This document shows positions 5,037 to 17,039 of a stretch of 27,515 nucleotides of DNA, piece by piece. The stretch is from positions 1-27,515 of IMG/VR virus record IMGVR_UViG_3300032334_002066; one strand, 5' to 3'. Origin of the DNA: a virus. How positions within the stretch are numbered: the stretch's first letter is position 1; every line of letters starts with the position of its first letter. Under the pieces are notes generated by a model, which was given only the letters and a program-made list of their open reading frames with translations, had not been told where the DNA came from and ran no database searches. The position numbers were made by a program, and so were the translations under genes.

Positions 5037-5121
5037 AGTCAAGTGGTGTAATTGGTAACACGGTCCTAATTTAATATGGTGAATACCAGGGCTAGTGCAG
5101 GTTCGAATCCTGCCCTGACTA
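5037..5121 (+). tRNA. tRNA-like RNA with aberrant anticodon arm
   Basis: The tRNA elements are clear: acceptor AGTCAAG (5037-5043) with CCTGACT (5114-5120, one mismatch), D-arm GTGT/ACAC with a GG-containing loop (5046-5061), and T-arm GCAGG-TTCGAAT-CCTGC (5097-5113). The anticodon region is not normal. The only 5-bp stem (GTCCT 5063-5067 with AGGGC 5088-5092, one G-T pair) closes a 20-nt loop instead of 7, so no anticodon can be assigned. CCA is not encoded. It could be an intron-bearing tRNA, a decayed tRNA or a tRNA-mimic RNA. A strong terminator follows. Confidence 0.6.
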
Positions 5122-5155
5122 CGCTGCTCTTCATAACAGTAGTTTTCTTTTTTAC

Positions 5156-7837: not shown

Positions 7838-8041
7838 ATGACAGAAAAAATGCAAGAAAATCCACAAAGAGTTAAATTAGTAATTGATGTACTCAAAGAT
7901 ATAGAAGTGGATGGTGAAACAATGCAATGCATTCTTAAAGAAATAAAAATGGACTGGCAAATGTTAAGACAATTAATGTTAACAATGCCAATTGAACAAG
8001 TAGAATATTTAATTGAAGAACGTAAAGATTTAGGATTATGA
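7838..8041 (+). CDS. Hypothetical protein, 67 aa
   Basis: Helical, Met- and Glu-rich (LVIDVLKDIEVDGETMQCILKEIKMDWQMLRQLM), ending VEYLIEERKDLGL. The final (K/R)DLGL also ends the 8795 gene (RDLGL), and GLGL ends 9421. No known domain. It overlaps the next gene by 4 nt (ATGA). Confidence 0.65.
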   Translation: MTEKMQENPQRVKLVIDVLKDIEVDGETMQCILKEIKMDWQMLRQLMLTMPIEQVEYLIEERKDLGL

Positions 8042-12194: not shown

Positions 12195-12374
12195 ATGAGT
12201 GATAAAGAATTGTTAGAAATGATCATCAATGATATTGAATTGTTGAAATTAATACTAGATAGAGGAGATATTGATGTGTATGGTTTTTGTGAGGAAGTAA
12301 TCCATTTAAAGGATTTTGTTGAAGGACAAATGAAAATCAACGATGAACATCACCAACAGGAATCGTCAAAATAA
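12195..12374 (+). CDS. Small hypothetical protein, 59 aa, C-terminus in a repeat
   Basis: ATG at 12195, stop TAA 12372-12374. A helical, acidic protein (LLEMIINDIELLKLILDRGDIDVYGF). Its last 14 residues (MKINDEHHQQESSK) are encoded by the first copy of the degenerate repeat that continues into non-coding DNA. The end of the gene may have been formed by, or eroded into, that repeat. Unrecognised. Confidence 0.55.
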   Translation: MSDKELLEMIINDIELLKLILDRGDIDVYGFCEEVIHLKDFVEGQMKINDEHHQQESSK

Positions 12375-12543
12375 TTGAGATAAACGTGTAAACAACGCGA
12401 ACGAACATCGTCAATGACGATCATCAACAAAACGGAAATCATCGATGATCATCACCAACAGGAATCATCAATGTGTGGAATGAACATCAACATGGGGAAC
12501 GTCAATTGTTAATGATGATTATCAACAAAACGGGAATCGTTAA
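12342..12543 (+). repeat. Degenerate ~100-bp tandem duplication made of 28-30-bp units
   Basis: Four related units: 12342-12369, 12416-12445, 12444-12471 and 12514-12543. Units 1 and 3 share CACCAACAGGAATC; units 2 and 4 share AACAAAACGG. Units 1 and 3 are 102 nt apart, units 2 and 4 are 98 nt apart, so the block is a ~100-bp duplication. All units carry GATxA(T/A)(C/T)ATCA. Candidate iterons of a replication origin or protein-binding array. Confidence 0.55.
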
Positions 12544-12882
12544 TAGTATGTGACAAGTGTGTTTTACAATGGATGGTGTGAAAAAATAGTGTATCTAACC
12601 CCCCCATGAATCGCCCCAACCATTTTTAACCCCTTCCAAAAGTATATACAAAAACACACGTCCCCTACGTGAAAAACGGGGGAAAGGGGGGTAAAAAATA
12701 GTAAAAAACATTTGGAAACCTGGGTAATTTTTCATATATTTCACATATGTATACGGGAACAAAATGATGTTCTCCGTCATGGAAACGGGTAACGGATAGA
12801 TACAGCGTTAAGGGCACGAAAATATCCCCAGGACCTACAAAACACGGAAATCGTCACGGATGTTCATTGTCAGGAAATCAAC
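12544..12882. other. Non-coding, C- and G-run-containing structured region
   Basis: No convincing gene. It contains C-runs (from 12599; CCCCTTCC near 12630) and complementary G-runs (GGGGGAAAGGGGGG, 12678-12691) that can form a long-range stem, with a perfect internal hairpin CACGT-CCCCT-ACGTG (12657-12671). The base composition is unlike the flanking genes. A 61-codon minus-strand frame (12595-12780) is judged spurious. Could be an origin, packaging or regulatory region, or an ncRNA. Confidence 0.4.
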
Positions 12883-12910
12883 AAAAAAAGCTTGCAAAGA
12901 AATTGCAGGC
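12883..12910 (-). terminator. Minus-strand intrinsic-terminator-like hairpin
   Basis: GCTTGCAA (12890-12897), loop AGAAA, TTGCAGGC (12903-12910) form an 8-bp stem with one G-T pair. On the + strand seven As precede it, so on the minus strand the stem is followed by seven Ts, as in an intrinsic terminator. No minus-strand gene is known here. Confidence 0.4.
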
Positions 12911-12924
12911 CATCATACTGCTTA

Positions 12925-12957
12925 GGAATACTTTTTATCAAACAATTTTCGTATATT
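12925..12957 (+). promoter_or_regulatory. Phage promoter, consensus form
   Basis: GGAATA 12925-12930, 17 nt, TTCGTATATT 12948-12957. The first promoter after the non-coding region; serves the 12980 gene. Confidence 0.75.
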
Positions 12958-12979
12958 TAAAATGAAAGAAGAAAATAAA

Positions 12980-13096
12980 ATGAAAACAATAGAAGTTACA
13001 CAACAAGAAATAAATCAAGCAACACGTCCTAACGTGTATAGGAATAAAAAGAAATATACAAGAAAAGATAAACACAAAGGGAATAAAGATTGTTAA
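12980..13096 (+). CDS. Small basic protein, 38 aa
   Basis: Reads MKTIEVTQQEINQATRPNVYRNKKKYTRKD and ends KHKGNKDC, stop TAA 13094-13096. Strongly basic. An in-frame ATG at 12962 exists but lies only 4 nt after the -10 box, close to the expected transcription start, so 12980 is preferred. Small basic peptides of the type RPxVYxxKKKYxRK occur in many T4-like phages, as I recall. Probably nucleic-acid binding, by inference from charge only. The next promoter's -35 lies inside it. Confidence 0.6.
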   Translation: MKTIEVTQQEINQATRPNVYRNKKKYTRKDKHKGNKDC

Positions 13097-13112
13097 AATT
13101 GATTCGTATATT
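13080..13112 (+). promoter_or_regulatory. Phage promoter with -35 inside coding sequence
   Basis: GGAATA 13080-13085 in the Gly-Asn codons of the upstream gene, 17 nt, TTCGTATATT 13103-13112, then AGTATAAAT. Serves the 13146 gene. Confidence 0.75.
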
Positions 13113-13145
13113 ACAGTATAAATAAAAAATATAAAAAGAAAAGTT

Positions 13146-13346
13146 ATGAAATTTGAAAGTATTAAAGAATTAAATTTGTTTATAAATGAATTTGATGAAG
13201 TTGATTTTGTAGATAATAATGATGAAAGTGAGTTTTTAGATTTAGTAAATGAAGAATTAAAAAATTATAAAAGAAAAAATCCTTTTAATGTTAATAATTG
13301 TTTGATTAAATTAGAAAATAAAGGATTGTTAGATAAGTTTTGTTAA
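13146..13346 (+). CDS. Hypothetical acidic protein, 66 aa, C-poor gene
   Basis: Acidic N-terminal two thirds rich in Asp, Glu, Asn and Phe, and a basic-to-hydrophobic end (NCLIKLENKGLLDKFC). Only two cytosines occur in the 201-nt coding strand, so Ala, His, Gln and Thr are absent and there is one Pro. Unrecognised. Its own promoter at 13080 and another right after its stop make it a single-gene unit. Confidence 0.6.
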   Translation: MKFESIKELNLFINEFDEVDFVDNNDESEFLDLVNEELKNYKRKNPFNVNNCLIKLENKGLLDKFC

Positions 13347-13379
13347 GGAATAAGTAAAACAAAATATAATTCGTATATT
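13347..13379 (+). promoter_or_regulatory. Phage promoter, consensus form
   Basis: GGAATA 13347-13352 directly after the TAA stop, 17 nt, TTCGTATATT 13370-13379, then AGTATAAAT. Serves the 13429 GRPVN-repeat gene. Confidence 0.8.
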
Positions 13380-13428
13380 ACAGTATAAATAAGAAATATA
13401 AATAATTAAATTTAAAAAAAGAAAAGTT

Positions 13429-13749
13429 ATGAAAAGTGAAGTTAAAAGTGTAAAATTAGGACGTCCTGTAAATGAAAACAGTGTAAGACAATTAAGGATT
13501 AAAGAGTTAGAAAGTAAAAAAGAGTTAGGATTGTTAAAAAGAGGACGTCCTGTAAATGAAAATAGTGAAAGACAAAAGAGGATTAGTGAGTTAGAAAATA
13601 AAAGAAAAAATGGAGAGTTGAAAAAAGGACGTCCTGTAAATGAAAATAGTGAAAGACAGAAAAGACTAAAAGAGTTAGAGAGTAAAAGAGAGTTAGGTTT
13701 AGTTAAAAGAGGACGACCTAAAAAAGATAATAATGAAATAGCTGCTTAG
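13429..13749 (+). CDS. GRPVN-repeat (AT-hook-like) protein A, 106 aa
   Basis: Built from three tandem units of about 29 residues, each opening with GRPVNENS(x)RQ and continuing in a charged helix (KRISELENKRKNGELKK type), plus a final KRGRPKKDN. The four GRP cores, mostly preceded by K/R, are AT-hook-like; AT-hooks insert GRP into the minor groove of AT-rich DNA. The phage protein could coat or bridge AT-rich DNA, including its own genome. It has a paralogue at 16562; the two bracket the C-poor gene block. Preceded by AAAGTTATG. Confidence 0.75.
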   Translation: MKSEVKSVKLGRPVNENSVRQLRIKELESKKELGLLKRGRPVNENSERQKRISELENKRKNGELKKGRPVNENSERQKRLKELESKRELGLVKRGRPKKDNNEIAA

Positions 13750-13774
13750 GAATAAAATAATAATCATCATCAAA

Positions 13775-13807
13775 GGAAGCCTCTTATTAAAGAGGCTTTC
13801 GTATATT
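13775..13807 (+). promoter_or_regulatory. Phage promoter fused to a terminator-like hairpin
   Basis: GGAAGC 13775-13780, 17 nt, TTCGTATATT 13798-13807. GGAAGCCTCT (13775-13784) pairs with AGAGGCTTTC (13791-13800) around TATTAA. Serves the 13833 gene. Confidence 0.8.
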
Positions 13808-13832
13808 GATAACATAATTAAAAAGATAAAAG

Positions 13833-14033
13833 ATGAAAAATATGAATGAATTAATCAGTGTAAGTGAAGTGAGTGATGAACGTTATGAAATAATTGATAA
13901 ACTTGTTATTGGTAGTGAATTAAAAGACTTTTTTAGATCTGTTGAAAAAATACAAAAGACGTTAAATAAACATAATATTGAAGCAAAAGAACAATATGAA
14001 TATCTATTGACTTTAATGATTAATCAGTGTTAA
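13833..14033 (+). CDS. Hypothetical helical protein, 66 aa
   Basis: Helical sequence SDERYEIIDKLVIGSELKDFFRSVEKIQKTLNKHNIEAKEQYEYLLTLM. A second start three codons in (MNELIS) is possible. No known domain. Single-gene unit; GGAATA follows the stop. Confidence 0.6.
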   Translation: MKNMNELISVSEVSDERYEIIDKLVIGSELKDFFRSVEKIQKTLNKHNIEAKEQYEYLLTLMINQC

Positions 14034-14066
14034 GGAATAAGTTTATTAAAAAATAATTCGTATATT
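14034..14066 (+). promoter_or_regulatory. Phage promoter, consensus form
   Basis: GGAATA 14034-14039 directly after the stop, 17 nt, TTCGTATATT 14057-14066, then TGTATAAT. Serves the 14092 gene. Confidence 0.8.
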
Positions 14067-14091
14067 AAATGTATAATTAAAAAGATAAAAA

Positions 14092-14280
14092 ATGACAGTA
14101 AAAGAATTAATTGAAGAGTTAGAAAAAGTAAAAAATAAGAATTTAAAAGTAGTTGTTAGAGGATGTGATCCAACGGACTGGGTTTATAATAATGAAGTTG
14201 AAGATGTTGGTGAACAAAATGTTTATGATGAAGAAATAGGTTATAGAAAACGATTTGTAATTGATGGAGGAATGTTTTAA
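14092..14280 (+). CDS. Conserved small phage protein, 62 aa
   Basis: Begins MTVKELIEELEKVKNKNLKVVVRGCDPTDWVYNNEVEDV and ends FVIDGGMF. The layout (short helix, strand LKVVV, Asp/Gly turns, closing VIDGG) matches a small family I recall from phages and mobile elements with the 'TVKELIEEL...D' opening. Function unknown. Its last codons carry the GGAATG -35 of the next promoter. Confidence 0.7.
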   Translation: MTVKELIEELEKVKNKNLKVVVRGCDPTDWVYNNEVEDVGEQNVYDEEIGYRKRFVIDGGMF

Positions 14281-14301
14281 TACATTTCTCCTTCGTATAT
14301 T
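14269..14301 (+). promoter_or_regulatory. Phage promoter with -35 inside coding sequence
   Basis: GGAATG 14269-14274 in the closing Gly-Gly-Met codons, 17 nt, TTCGTATATT 14292-14301. Serves the 14324 gene. Confidence 0.75.
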
Positions 14302-14323
14302 GATGATATAAAAAGAAAATAAA

Positions 14324-14452
14324 ATGAGTGAAGAAGAAAGAAAAGAATTAGAATTGTTAGCATTTTTATTAATCCAGGAAGTGAATACTGTACAATTTAT
14401 TTTTATGCCTGAAGTGTTTAGATTTGAAGATAGTATAATTAGATTAAACTAA
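14324..14452 (+). CDS. Small hypothetical protein, 42 aa
   Basis: ATG 14324, stop TAA 14450-14452: MSEEERKELELLAFLLIQEVNTVQFIFMPE and a short end FRFEDSIIRLN. Acidic front helix, hydrophobic strand. Placed between a promoter (14269-14301) and the next one (14453), which supports it as a real single-gene unit. Unrecognised. Confidence 0.55.
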   Translation: MSEEERKELELLAFLLIQEVNTVQFIFMPEVFRFEDSIIRLN

Positions 14453-14485
14453 GGAATAACTTAATTAAAGTAAGATTCGTATATT
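14453..14485 (+). promoter_or_regulatory. Phage promoter, consensus form
   Basis: GGAATA 14453-14458 directly after the stop, 17 nt, TTCGTATATT 14476-14485, then GGTATAAT. Serves the 14510 gene. Confidence 0.8.
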
Positions 14486-14509
14486 TCAGGTATAATTAAA
14501 GAGATAAAA

Positions 14510-14731
14510 ATGAAAAAAGAAGAATTAAATTTAAAAATTAAAGAATTAAAAGATTTTGGTTTTACAGGGAATAGTATTGAGTTTAAAGAATTATTAATAA
14601 CTTGTTCAACTCAGGAAGATGAGAAAGAAACTCCTTATTACTTTGTTTATGAAGAGGAAGATGAAAGTGAGGATGGAATTTTTAGTTCTCTTAATTCAGA
14701 GGAAATAGTAGAGTTTGTTTTTAATTATTAA
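14510..14731 (+). CDS. Hypothetical protein, 73 aa
   Basis: Basic helical start (MKKEELNLKIKELKDFGFTG), a Tyr/Glu middle (TPYYFVYEEEDESEDGIFSS) and a closing IVEFVFNY. Small acidic protein, unrecognised. The last + strand cytosine before the C-free run is at 14697 in its 3' end. Confidence 0.6.
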   Translation: MKKEELNLKIKELKDFGFTGNSIEFKELLITCSTQEDEKETPYYFVYEEEDESEDGIFSSLNSEEIVEFVFNY

Positions 14732-14745
14732 ATAAATAAATAAAA

Positions 14746-14778
14746 GGAATAAGTAAATTAAAAAGAAATTTGTATATT
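14746..14778 (+). promoter_or_regulatory. Phage promoter, TTTGTATATT variant (no C)
   Basis: GGAATA 14746-14751, 17 nt, TTTGTATATT 14769-14778. The C of the consensus TTCG is replaced by T, consistent with its position in the C-free run. Serves the 14829 gene. Confidence 0.75.
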
Positions 14779-14828
14779 AATAATATAAAAAGATAAATAA
14801 ATAAAGTATAATTAAAAAAAGAAAAGTT

Positions 14829-15245
14829 ATGAAAAAGTTAAGTAAATTGGAATTGGATATTGTTGTAAATGAAGTAGTTAATAATATTAAAAGTATTGAA
14901 GAGAATAAAAGTAAAGAATTATTTGAAAAAAGTGAAAATAAAGATTTATTTTTAAGTAAAGTAAATGAAATGAAAGAATTAGAAGATAAATTAGATTTAT
15001 TAAATAAAGAAATTAATATATTAGAAAAAGAATTTGTTAAAGAAGGATTAAGAGTATTTTTTATTAGTAAAAATAATAGAGGATATGGAAATAATAAAAA
15101 TAAATTATTTAATGTTAATTTAGAAAATGGTAAAGGAAGTAGTTTTAGTTTATATAAAGATATTGAAAAAGAAATTATATTAAGTAGTTTAGAGGATATG
15201 AATATTAAAGAATTAATAAAGGATTTAATAGAGAAGTTTAAATAA
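14829..15245 (+). CDS. Cytosine-free gene, predicted coiled-coil protein, 138 aa
   Basis: The coding strand has no cytosine from start to stop. The protein therefore contains no Ala, His, Pro, Gln or Thr (nor Cys or Trp); Ser is only AGT, Leu only TTA/TTG, Arg only AGA. Residues 1-76 are a long charged helix with heptad-like Leu/Ile spacing (SENKDLFLSKVNEMKELEDK region), probably a coiled coil. A short strand/Gly-Asn segment follows (FFISKNNRGYGNN), then helices at the C-terminus. No family recognised. Its C-free DNA is the extreme of the C-poor block 13100-16500. Confidence 0.65.
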   Translation: MKKLSKLELDIVVNEVVNNIKSIEENKSKELFEKSENKDLFLSKVNEMKELEDKLDLLNKEINILEKEFVKEGLRVFFISKNNRGYGNNKNKLFNVNLENGKGSSFSLYKDIEKEIILSSLEDMNIKELIKDLIEKFK

Positions 15246-15268
15246 ATAAATAATAAATAAATAATATA

Positions 15269-15301
15269 GGAAGCCCTTTTTATAAGGGCTTTTTGTATAT
15301 T
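15269..15301 (+). promoter_or_regulatory. Phage promoter fused to a hairpin, TTTGTATATT variant
   Basis: GGAAGC 15269-15274, 17 nt, TTTGTATATT 15292-15301. GGAAGCCCTT (15269-15278) pairs with AAGGGCTTTT (15284-15293) around TTTAT. The hairpin holds the first cytosines after the C-free run. Serves the 15338 gene. Confidence 0.75.
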
Positions 15302-15337
15302 AAATGTATAATTAAAAAAGATAAAAAAATAAAAGTT

Positions 15338-15754
15338 ATGTTTGGTAAAATTGATATTGAAAAAACTAAAGGAAGTTTATTAGTAAGAAATGAAATAATT
15401 GAAAAATTAGATAAAGAATTAGGAGTTAAATTTGGTTATAGTTTTAATGATTTATATGGTGTTAAAGGAGGAGTTGTTAGAAGATTGAAAGGTGGGATTG
15501 TTAATAGAGAAATGATGGAGAGAGGTAGTAATATGAAGATGTATAATGAATTGTTTAATAAAGTAAAAGAATTTATTGAGAATTTAGAATTTGAAAATTA
15601 TAAAATTGAATTAAATAAGAAAATGGATTATGGTTGGAATGATTATATGAGAATGAAAGAATATGGATTTGAAGGTAATTTTGAAGATTATAAGAATTTT
15701 AGAATTGAAAATGAAGGAACTTTGATATTAAAGATTAAGTGGGAAGTTGAATAA
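15338..15754 (+). CDS. Hypothetical protein, 138 aa, nearly C-free gene
   Basis: Start chosen at ATG 15338 (AAAGTTATG context). An upstream ATG at 15293 lies inside the promoter hairpin and -10 box and would add 15 residues. Only two cytosines in 417 nt; no Ala, Cys, His, Pro or Gln. Sequence has GVKGGVVRRLKGGIVNRE in the middle, suggesting a Gly-rich loop, then helices and a beta end (TLILKIKWEVE). Same length as the 14829 gene but not similar in sequence. Function unknown. Confidence 0.65.
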   Translation: MFGKIDIEKTKGSLLVRNEIIEKLDKELGVKFGYSFNDLYGVKGGVVRRLKGGIVNREMMERGSNMKMYNELFNKVKEFIENLEFENYKIELNKKMDYGWNDYMRMKEYGFEGNFEDYKNFRIENEGTLILKIKWEVE

Positions 15755-15768
15755 AATAAAATAATTAA

Positions 15769-15801
15769 GGAAGACCCTTTTATAGGGTCTTTTCGTATAT
15801 T
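15769..15801 (+). promoter_or_regulatory. Phage promoter fused to a terminator-like hairpin
   Basis: GGAAGA 15769-15774, 17 nt, TTCGTATATT 15792-15801. GGAAGACCCT (15769-15778) pairs with AGGGTCTTTT (15784-15793) around TTTAT. The A/T change in the stem is compensated on both sides compared with the GGAAGCCC hairpins. Serves the 15827 gene. Confidence 0.8.
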
Positions 15802-15826
15802 GATTGTATAATTAAAAAGAAATAAA

Positions 15827-16018
15827 ATGATTGATTTAAAAAATGTTATTAGTTTAATTGAAATTAAATTTTGTAAAAAAGTAAGTTGTATAGTAAGAGA
15901 AGATGGTAGTGATAAATGTTGGTTAGTTATATTTGAAGGAGAAACTGAGTTTAAGTTTATTAGATTAGATGATAAGGACATAGAAATGATAAATAAATTT
16001 AGTATATTAAATGTATAA
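15827..16018 (+). CDS. Hypothetical protein, 63 aa
   Basis: Alternating helix and strand: IDLKNVISLIEIKFCKKVSCIVRED, CWLVIFEGETEFKFIRLDD, IEMINKFSILNV. Two Cys near residue 20 in a strand. Unrecognised. Its 3' end contains the -35 and -10-like boxes of the next promoter (15976-16008), so the last codons are under two constraints. Confidence 0.6.
   Translation: MIDLKNVISLIEIKFCKKVSCIVREDGSDKCWLVIFEGETEFKFIRLDDKDIEMINKFSILNV
15976..16008 (+). promoter_or_regulatory. Degenerate phage promoter fully inside a coding end
   Basis: GGACAT 15976-15981, 17 nt, TTAGTATATT 15999-16008, then TGTATAAT. Both boxes lie within the 15827 gene. Serves the 16033 gene. Confidence 0.55.
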
Positions 16019-16032
16019 TTAAAAATAAAAAG

Positions 16033-16176
16033 ATGGATATTGGTTTTGTTTATAAAGGAGTGTTAGTGTTATTTGATAAAAAAATTGGATATTTTTTATA
16101 TATTGGGGAAGATAAATTTACATTCCCAGATAAAGAAACAATTAAAGATTTTATAAATAAAGAGTTAATGGAATAA
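16033..16176 (+). CDS. Small hypothetical protein, 47 aa
   Basis: ATG 16033, stop TAA 16174-16176: MDIGFVYKGVLVLFDKKIGYF, then LYIGEDKFTFPDKETIKDF and NKELME. Beta-rich. Its final Met-Glu-stop codons spell the GGAATA box of the next promoter exactly. Unrecognised. Confidence 0.55.
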   Translation: MDIGFVYKGVLVLFDKKIGYFLYIGEDKFTFPDKETIKDFINKELME

Positions 16177-16202
16177 AATAATATAATGTAGTTTCGTATA
16201 TT
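16170..16202 (+). promoter_or_regulatory. Phage promoter made from the upstream stop codon
   Basis: GGAATA 16170-16175 consists of the last G of Met, the Glu codon and the first two bases of TAA. Seventeen nt, TTCGTATATT 16193-16202. Serves the 16227 gene. Confidence 0.75.
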
Positions 16203-16226
16203 GAGTGTATAATTAAAAAAAGAAAT

Positions 16227-16310
16227 ATGATAGGTAGTATAGTTTATTTAAGTTTGTTATTGAATGTAGTATTAATTATGAAATTAATTAGTAAATCAGG
16301 GAATAAGTAA
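16227..16310 (+). CDS. Tiny single-span membrane peptide, 27 aa
   Basis: ATG 16227, stop TAA 16308-16310. Residues 4-19 (SIVYLSLLLNVVLIMK) are hydrophobic, with a short basic tail (KLISKSGNK). It fits a single-pass small membrane protein. Too short to classify, but it has its own promoter upstream and another after it. Its Gly-Asn codons supply the next GGAATA. Confidence 0.45.
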   Translation: MIGSIVYLSLLLNVVLIMKLISKSGNK

Positions 16311-16332
16311 GTTAAATTAAAGTTTGTATATT
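16300..16332 (+). promoter_or_regulatory. Phage promoter, TTTGTATATT variant, -35 in coding end
   Basis: GGAATA 16300-16305 in the last codons of the 16227 gene, 17 nt, TTTGTATATT 16323-16332, then GGTATAAT. Serves the 16357 gene. Confidence 0.7.
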
Positions 16333-16356
16333 AAGGTATAATTAAAAAAAGATAAA

Positions 16357-16500
16357 ATGAAAAAAAGTTTAAGTTTAGTAAAAGGTAATTTAGTTGATAA
16401 AGTTTGTATTACTTTAGGTTTAGGATTTATAGTTGGAATAGTAAGTTTAATAATATATAATTGTATTGCTATTGGAACTACTTGTTATTTTAGTGTTTAA
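16357..16500 (+). CDS. Small membrane protein, 47 aa
   Basis: ATG 16357, stop TAA 16498-16500. A basic start (MKKSLSLVKGN) is followed by a membrane span of about residues 16-38 (VCITLGLGFIVGIVSLIIYN) and a short end with Cys. Single-gene unit directly followed by GGAATA. Function unknown. Confidence 0.55.
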   Translation: MKKSLSLVKGNLVDKVCITLGLGFIVGIVSLIIYNCIAIGTTCYFSV

Positions 16501-16533
16501 GGAATAAGTAAGTAAATAGATAATTCGTATATT
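16501..16533 (+). promoter_or_regulatory. Phage promoter, consensus form
   Basis: GGAATA 16501-16506 directly after the stop, 17 nt, TTCGTATATT 16524-16533, then ATATAAAT. Serves the 16562 GRPVN-repeat gene and perhaps the RNA at 16914. Confidence 0.8.
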
Positions 16534-16561
16534 GATAATATAAATAAAAAGAAATAAAGTT

Positions 16562-16894
16562 ATGAAAAAAGTTGAAGTAAAAGAAGTAAAGCAATTAGGC
16601 CGTCCAGTTAATGTTAATAGTGCAAGACAAATCCGTTTAGCAGAGTTAGCGGTTAAAAAAGCAAATGGTGAGTTGAAACGTGGACGCCCTGTAAATGAGA
16701 ACAGTGAAAGGCAAGCTCGATTAGCTAAGCAAGAAATAAATAAGATATTAGGTGTAGGGCAAGGACGCCCTGTAAATCCAAATAGTGCTAGGCAGTTAAG
16801 ATTAGCTGAGTTGAAGGCTAAGGCTGAGTTAAATGGTGGTACCGTTAAACGTGGACGACCAGCTCAAGTTAAAGGTGATGAAGTGGCTGGATAA
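16562..16894 (+). CDS. GRPVN-repeat (AT-hook-like) protein B, 110 aa
   Basis: Three units of about 27-30 residues opening GRPVN(V/E/P)NS(A/E)RQ, each followed by a helix (RLAELAVKKANGELKR type), and a terminal KRGRPAQVKGD. Paralogue of the 13429 gene, but with normal cytosine use (Ala and Pro abundant), so the pair shows how composition differs inside and outside the C-poor block. Likely binds AT-rich DNA through its GRP cores; inferred from the motif only. A perfect 7-bp hairpin (AAGTGGC/GCCACTT, 16881-16901) spans its stop codon. Confidence 0.75.
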   Translation: MKKVEVKEVKQLGRPVNVNSARQIRLAELAVKKANGELKRGRPVNENSERQARLAKQEINKILGVGQGRPVNPNSARQLRLAELKAKAELNGGTVKRGRPAQVKGDEVAG

Positions 16895-16913: not shown

Positions 16914-17039
16914 AGTCAGGTGGCGGAAATGGAAGACGCTATGGCCAAGTAACTGAATCCTAGGGAAATGTACAATCCCAATTGGCAGTAAGTGAACCCA
17001 TACCAGACGTGGATGCAGGTTCGAATCCTGTCCTGACTA
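16914..17039 (+). tRNA. tRNA-Leu-like RNA with oversized anticodon region, 126 nt
   Basis: Perfect acceptor stem AGTCAGG (16914-16920) with CCTGACT (17032-17038), a Leu-type D-arm GCG/CGC with GG in the loop (16923-16939), and T-arm GCAGG-TTCGAAT-CCTGT (17015-17031). The middle is about 40 nt too long for tRNA-Leu. A stem of about 9 positions with one mismatch (16940-16948 with 16982-16990, core GCCAA/TTGGC) closes a 33-nt region containing GGGA/TCCC. No anticodon is assignable and CCA is not encoded. The last 27 nt match the RNA at 5037 with one difference. Terminator downstream. Confidence 0.6.

Follow-up and report, generated by a model that had tools for sequence, protein, structure and literature searches.

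The C-depleted zone and its genes

The window, that is, the whole stretch of DNA analysed here, is a 27.5-kb virus fragment in which the longest run without cytosine on the + strand spans 576 nt (14698-15273). The run had been described in a sequence-only reading of this DNA and a direct count reproduced it; the same count agreed with that reading in finding the gene fam2 wholly C-free and in finding only two C in the neighbouring gene fam8 (Table 1). Being C-free, fam2 has no codons for Ala, His, Pro, Gln or Thr. The second-longest C-free run of the window measures 353 nt (15367-15719), further runs measure 166, 150 and 141 nt, and nearly all of them fall within 12.95-16.56 kb. A 138-letter C-free pattern yielded 701 matches in the window, versus 0 in dinucleotide-preserving shuffles of the window.

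Table 1. Positions of the genes, intergenic elements and compositional blocks in and around the C-depleted zone of the window.
Feature	Position	Strand	Remarks
C-richer non-coding block with repeats	12300..12949	.	Directly upstream of the zone
C-depleted zone	12950..16560	+	Some dozen small genes; most have a promoter unit each
C-poor small gene	13146..13346	+	1.0% C; two adjacent C, one CC and one CT
Left GRPVN-repeat gene, within the zone	13429..13749	+	Synonymous C nearly lost, required C (CGT CCT) retained
Promoter unit of the C-free gene	14769..14790	+	TTTGTATATT in place of TTCGTATATT
C-free gene fam2, 138 aa, no known family	14829..15245	+	0 C in 417 nt
Terminator hairpin GAAGCCC..GGGCTT, 3' of the C-free gene	15270..15291	+	C paired in the RNA stem
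Second C-poor gene fam8, 138 aa	15338..15754	+	Two C, both ACT
Terminator hairpin GAAGACCC..GGGTCTT, 3' of the second C-poor gene	15770..15792	+	C paired
C-poor small gene	15827..16018	+	1.0% C; orthologues 0.5-0.9%
C-poor small gene	16357..16500	+	2.8% C; 4/4 C followed by T
Right GRPVN-repeat gene	16562..16894	+	First normal-C gene past the zone, 13.2% C; internal control

The C content of the zone is 1-6.6% per 500 nt, as compared to 9-20% over most of its flanks, and the zone edges are abrupt. G content remains 15-20% and NNG/NNR does not shift, whereas NNC/NNY falls from approximately 0.2-0.3 to 0-0.04, and the fraction of codons that have C in their first or second position falls from approximately 0.25 to 0.01-0.1. 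Since C falls while G and the synonymous G fraction do not, the loss is strand-specific, as had been proposed, and is not plain AT-richness; base composition along the window and in its relatives gave the same picture, with C depleted on the coding strand only and G unaffected. A smooth positional gradient of C loss was considered and rejected, given the sharp edges and the occurrence of normal-C genes between C-free ones.

The zone constitutes the end of the small-gene region and terminates at a GRPVN-repeat gene. Two paralogous genes encoding GRPVNxNSxRQ repeats bracket the C-poor zone, and similar pairs were observed in contigs L117, L118, L119, L120, L122 and G011. At 16914-17039 there is a 126-nt tRNA-like gene (Rfam tRNA, 33.9 bits) that was missed by ARAGORN and is perhaps an interrupted tRNA; a tRNA gene at 5037-5122 (Rfam tRNA, 44 bits) received an unusual two-base anticodon call from ARAGORN.

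The protein products of the zone resemble little that is catalogued. Comparison of the C-poor proteins with PHROGs returned weak matches of unknown function only, and searches of a phage collection with the DNA and proteins of the zone gave no matches; a search of a genome collection with fam8 gave one weak partial match, in which C content is normal. Across 6 orthologues of fam8, 34 residues are invariant, and its AlphaFold prediction is confident (pLDDT 89.8), with no PDB match to the predicted fold at E<=0.001; the prediction for fam2 is of low confidence. In several contigs, pN/pS was approximately 0.83 in C-free genes versus approximately 0.45 elsewhere, values which are indicative only, as a C-excluded site count was used for low-C genes; a pN/pS near 0.83 may hint at relaxed or diversifying selection on the C-free genes.

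Regular intergenic units, 32 of which were counted, recur between 2077 and 17150 of the window. In most genes of the small-gene region the unit runs in the order AGGAA, a 20-nt hairpin or AT stretch, TTCGTATATT, TATAAT and ATG, with promoters and start positions assigned from these motifs and TTCGTATATT situated upstream of the presumed start site. The T tract of the hairpin abuts the next promoter. Nearly every gene of L119 carries TTAGTATATT as its promoter element, whether or not the gene is C-poor. In the fam2 transcript, C first appears within the terminator.

Recurrence of C-poor genes among relatives

Orthologues of fam2 share 75% (G001), 63% (L120) and 33-38% (G008, G009 and G010) identity with the protein of the window; the first four contain 0 C and that of G010 contains 1. 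At approximately 150 aligned sites that differ between the two fam2 clades, this one C was the only T-C difference. A distant relative in L141 (25% identity) likewise has 0 C, with 31% G, in a genome whose normal genes have 17% C, and the version in G037 has 2.5% C.

Unrelated genes are affected as well. Among approximately 19 related contigs, 15 ORFs of at least 55 codons, from several unrelated families, have no C, and 24 unrelated gene families have a member with at most 1.5% C. Unrelated C-free genes were also present in L118, L119, L122, L125, L137, L139, L140, L141 and G011; in these other contigs they occupy the same position or a comparable small-gene region, and C-free runs there measure 977 nt (L118), 924 nt (L137) and 885 nt (L141). 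G009 has 208 genes, and of the 14 with the least C, 13 sit in a single 5-kb interval. The near-complete relatives are 155-174 kb in length and carry almost all genes on one strand. G004, a close relative by RecA identity, is without a C-free module, its lowest ORF of at least 50 codons having 6.4% C. Further contigs were found through the promoter or start-codon motif and then a C-free stretch, and these numbers give no frequency estimate for other phage groups; orthologue counts share ancestry, and family-collapsed values are given where it matters. Nearly all of the sequences are metagenomic fragments, with the host known only for phage immuto; the hosts of this phage family are probably Bacteroidota.

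Eleven ORFs of the window match Flavobacterium phage vB_FspM_immuto_2-6A (Immutovirus, NC_055915, 160 kb) at 26-56% identity. Nine of the 11 (4161 to 26322) follow the same order (DUF932, T5orf172, phosphohydrolase, baseplate gp25), and the ORFs at 42-332 and 7838-8041 match out of order, at 22.7 kb and 72.4 kb of the phage. In the interval corresponding to the zone, immuto carries gp143, which has 1.4% C (next lowest 5.5%, median 14.6%); it differs from the window in having one C-poor gene, which is not fully C-free. Because C loss is seen in independent metagenome contigs and, in milder form, in this gene of a cultured phage, assembly error, which had been raised as a way in which the C-free run might be spurious, was dismissed.

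Replacement of C and the context of the C that remain

The lack of C is maintained, affects one strand, and is accompanied by a replacement spectrum, a next-base context and a sparing of paired C, all of which were observed directly. C was lost at synonymous and amino-acid-changing sites alike, and the loss is probably due to selection and not to mutation. Strand-specific C-to-T mutation, through deamination of a displaced or transcribed strand, would account for a loss limited to the coding strand and for the promoters, which also lose C, often by a change of TTCG to TTTG; it would, however, leave T in place of C. At codon positions 1 and 2, where the out-of-zone orthologue has C, the in-zone base was T in 23% of unique pairs, versus a baseline of 27.5% in ordinary orthologue pairs (p=0.45). 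In L141, the 17.2% C lost was offset by A (+9.4) and G (+7.5), and T was essentially unchanged (+0.3). In the GRPVN-repeat genes, CGN and AGR codons for Arg stood at 41:141 in or next to the zone versus 85:29 elsewhere (p=9e-19, uncollapsed counts), and replacement of CGN by AGR is a C-to-A change. The deamination reading therefore fails, because A and G took the place of the missing C no less than T did. Moreover, PF00383 (dCMP/cytidine-deaminase family) was absent from 10 genomes, whereas 12 of 14 controls scored, in a search covering the PF00383 fold and phage-encoded proteins.

The position of C-poor genes also bears on mutation, which does not explain why normal-C genes are interspersed among C-free ones; in L119 and L125, ordinary-C genes stand between C-free genes. 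Within one gene family, the in-zone member can lack C while the out-of-zone member has a normal content (L119, 2649: 0.4% C; L122, 960: 8.4% C), and the 'MTVKEL' family has 1.5-3.8% C inside the zone versus 7.0-13.0% at or beyond its edge. We consider C-to-T mutation very improbable. The interpretation offered in the sequence-only reading thus survives in part: strand-specific loss stands, and selection against C in the transcript, one of its options, is favoured by the evidence; strong C-to-T pressure by deamination is not, and capture from a C-poor source finds no support, as members of a single family lack C within the zone yet have ordinary C content beyond it.

G is untouched on the coding strand, and therefore whatever senses C acts on a single-stranded target, either RNA or one DNA strand during transcription; a target at the level of double-stranded DNA is unlikely, because the coding strand would then have lost G too. 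The C that remain in low-C genes are preferentially followed by T (NCT:NCA 73:29 versus 1200:1522, p=4e-8, one gene per family), and GTN and GGN codons exhibited no matching T-over-A shift. The effect extends across codon borders: T followed 29 of the 56 third-position C in the 1.5-4% C class, versus 388 of 1985, and in gp143 of immuto_2-6A all 5 of 5 C were followed by T. A codon or tRNA explanation was rejected: NNC and NNT codons are read by shared tRNAs, and the next-base effect crosses codon borders. In the 3'UTRs of C-free genes, C in predicted stems outnumbered unpaired C by 38:8, versus 117:133 (p=5e-6); the density of unpaired C was 1.0% versus 4.6%, and that of paired C 4.7% versus 4.0%. 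The CT preference and the sparing of paired C favour an RNA target with a dinucleotide preference, and the sparing could arise in part from terminator function.

That C is absent completely suggests that each C counts singly, which single-hit damage fits better than a threshold property. Low C might favour such a property of the transcript, be it freedom from secondary structure, an R-loop at an origin or escape from Rho, as fewer G-C pairs can form once C is lost and GC skew then reaches its maximum, and a C-richer, repeat-bearing block lies directly upstream of the zone; but this supplies no reason to remove the last C, leaves the normal-C genes among C-free ones in L119 and L125 unaccounted for, and the preference for CT over CA is not what Rho binding or folding would predict. 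We hold it to be improbable. Prokaryotic viperins are an established class of defence, and a shortage of CTP, or a chain-terminating CTP analogue such as their product ddhCTP, would allow only C-free transcripts to be completed. This would act by single hits and on one strand, and it agrees with the first C of the fam2 transcript being in its terminator; chain termination by ddhCTP, however, should ignore the next base, yet the residual C strongly favour a following T, and some genes keep an early C, such as the ACT at codon 10 of fam8. The CTP explanation appears distinctly improbable. Mutation, threshold effects (structure, R-loop, Rho) and CTP shortage or ddhCTP are all less likely than the action of an RNase or a modified template.

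A putative C-directed RNase, a possible modified template and known systems

Tentatively, we propose that the C-free genes evade a putative C-directed endoribonuclease, of host or phage origin, which would cut single-stranded RNA at CpV in preference to CpU. Selection on single-stranded mRNA, not mutation, would keep the genes C-free; each unpaired C, chiefly one before A, C or G, would pose a danger of its own during infection; the danger would come from this endoribonuclease, acting in host defence or supplied by the phage and cleaving CpV better than CpU; and genes that need expression while the nuclease is active would have shed every target. RNA as the target, a nuclease as the agent and expression during attack are each steps that we infer. 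Put more generally, and with a little more reserve, it is possible that unrelated genes of dsDNA phages produce three-letter messages, mRNAs stripped of C against a putative C-cutting (CpV) RNase in the infected cell.

The promoters count against an RNA target. The C of TTCGTATATT was lost ahead of low-C genes in 22 of 34 cases, versus 23 of 159 (p=8e-9, counts uncorrected for relatedness); the element lies upstream of the presumed start, and its loss of C tracks the downstream gene, which would not be expected of an RNA target. Two features of the 3'UTRs bear on the RNase in the same direction: the few unpaired C there lack the CT preference (3:5 versus 49:84), and terminator stems may retain C merely to stay functional.

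The main rival, which we nevertheless judge rather unlikely, is a block at the template strand. If G in the phage DNA were replaced by 7-deazaguanine, a C-free coding strand would present a template without modified G, readable first by the unmodified host RNA polymerase; strand bias, single-hit behaviour and promoter C loss would all be covered. G009, a zone-bearing relative, encodes QueC, QueE, FolE2 and QueD, together with a protein that shares 33% identity with the immuto_2-6A protein annotated as DNA guanine transglycosylase. Of 28 records, 10 contain QueC, among them 8 of the first 10 to be tested. Complete replacement of dG has been reported for Firehammervirus DNA (PMC10273834). The DpdA-like protein of G009 also occurs in Campylobacter Firehammerviruses; the TGT model PF01702 gave no match. 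Set against a modified template, C-free runs are missing from G004 and from other relatives that have QueC, Firehammervirus CP21 is likewise without a C-free gene (its lowest ORF has 3.8% C), most normal-C early genes would still need to be transcribed, and the preference of residual C for a following T would have no obvious cause. At L100:9183-14387 (relative G009), the complete preQ0 set (QueC, QueD, QueE and FolE2) and the DpdA-like protein are encoded beside a family-B DNA polymerase. Radical-SAM matches taken at one point as viperin-like were dropped, the G009 protein being QueE-like.

That one base has been eliminated entirely, and has stayed eliminated, from the messages of many unrelated genes implies a powerful agent at work during infection, one for which even a single C carries a cost. 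Should this agent be an RNase, the sequences foretell its specificity (CpA, CpC and CpG worse than CpU, in unpaired RNA only), and it would be an enzyme not yet described from Bacteroidota or their phages, C-specific and serving RNA-based defence or host shutoff; should it be modified template DNA, the genes bear on how hypermodified phages start transcription. Both readings can be tested in culture, with immuto_2-6A on its host Flavobacterium sp. LMO8; the lack of C could also serve to find the genes that such phages most need under attack.

Phages with 7-deazaguanine-modified DNA (Dpd) resemble the relatives studied here, in which genes for the preQ0 pathway and for a DpdA-like protein are present; they differ in that C-free genes are not reported in the available portion of the published account (Hutinet 2019, PMC6884629), and CP21 is without any. 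Within partial open-access coverage of the literature, no paper pairing 'cytosine-free' with 'bacteriophage' was found. RNA viruses suppress CpG and UpA, thereby evading ZAP and RNase L. There, too, viral RNA sheds short motifs seen by a host RNA-targeting factor, with dinucleotide context, but the suppression is genome-wide and in eukaryotic viruses, whereas here it is a handful of dsDNA phage genes that have been rid of one base altogether. RegB of T4 is a sequence-specific RNase that acts on early phage messages, as the putative enzyme may; its target is GGAG, and a C-specific counterpart was not found here. A parallel in outcome is single-protein production with MazF, an engineered system that spares ACA-less mRNAs, which offer the nuclease no target, and cuts every other mRNA. 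That system removes a three-base motif by design, whereas nearly every C has been removed here in nature, and if an RNase is indeed the agent, the C-free genes would be a natural counterpart of those nuclease-proof, ACA-less mRNAs.
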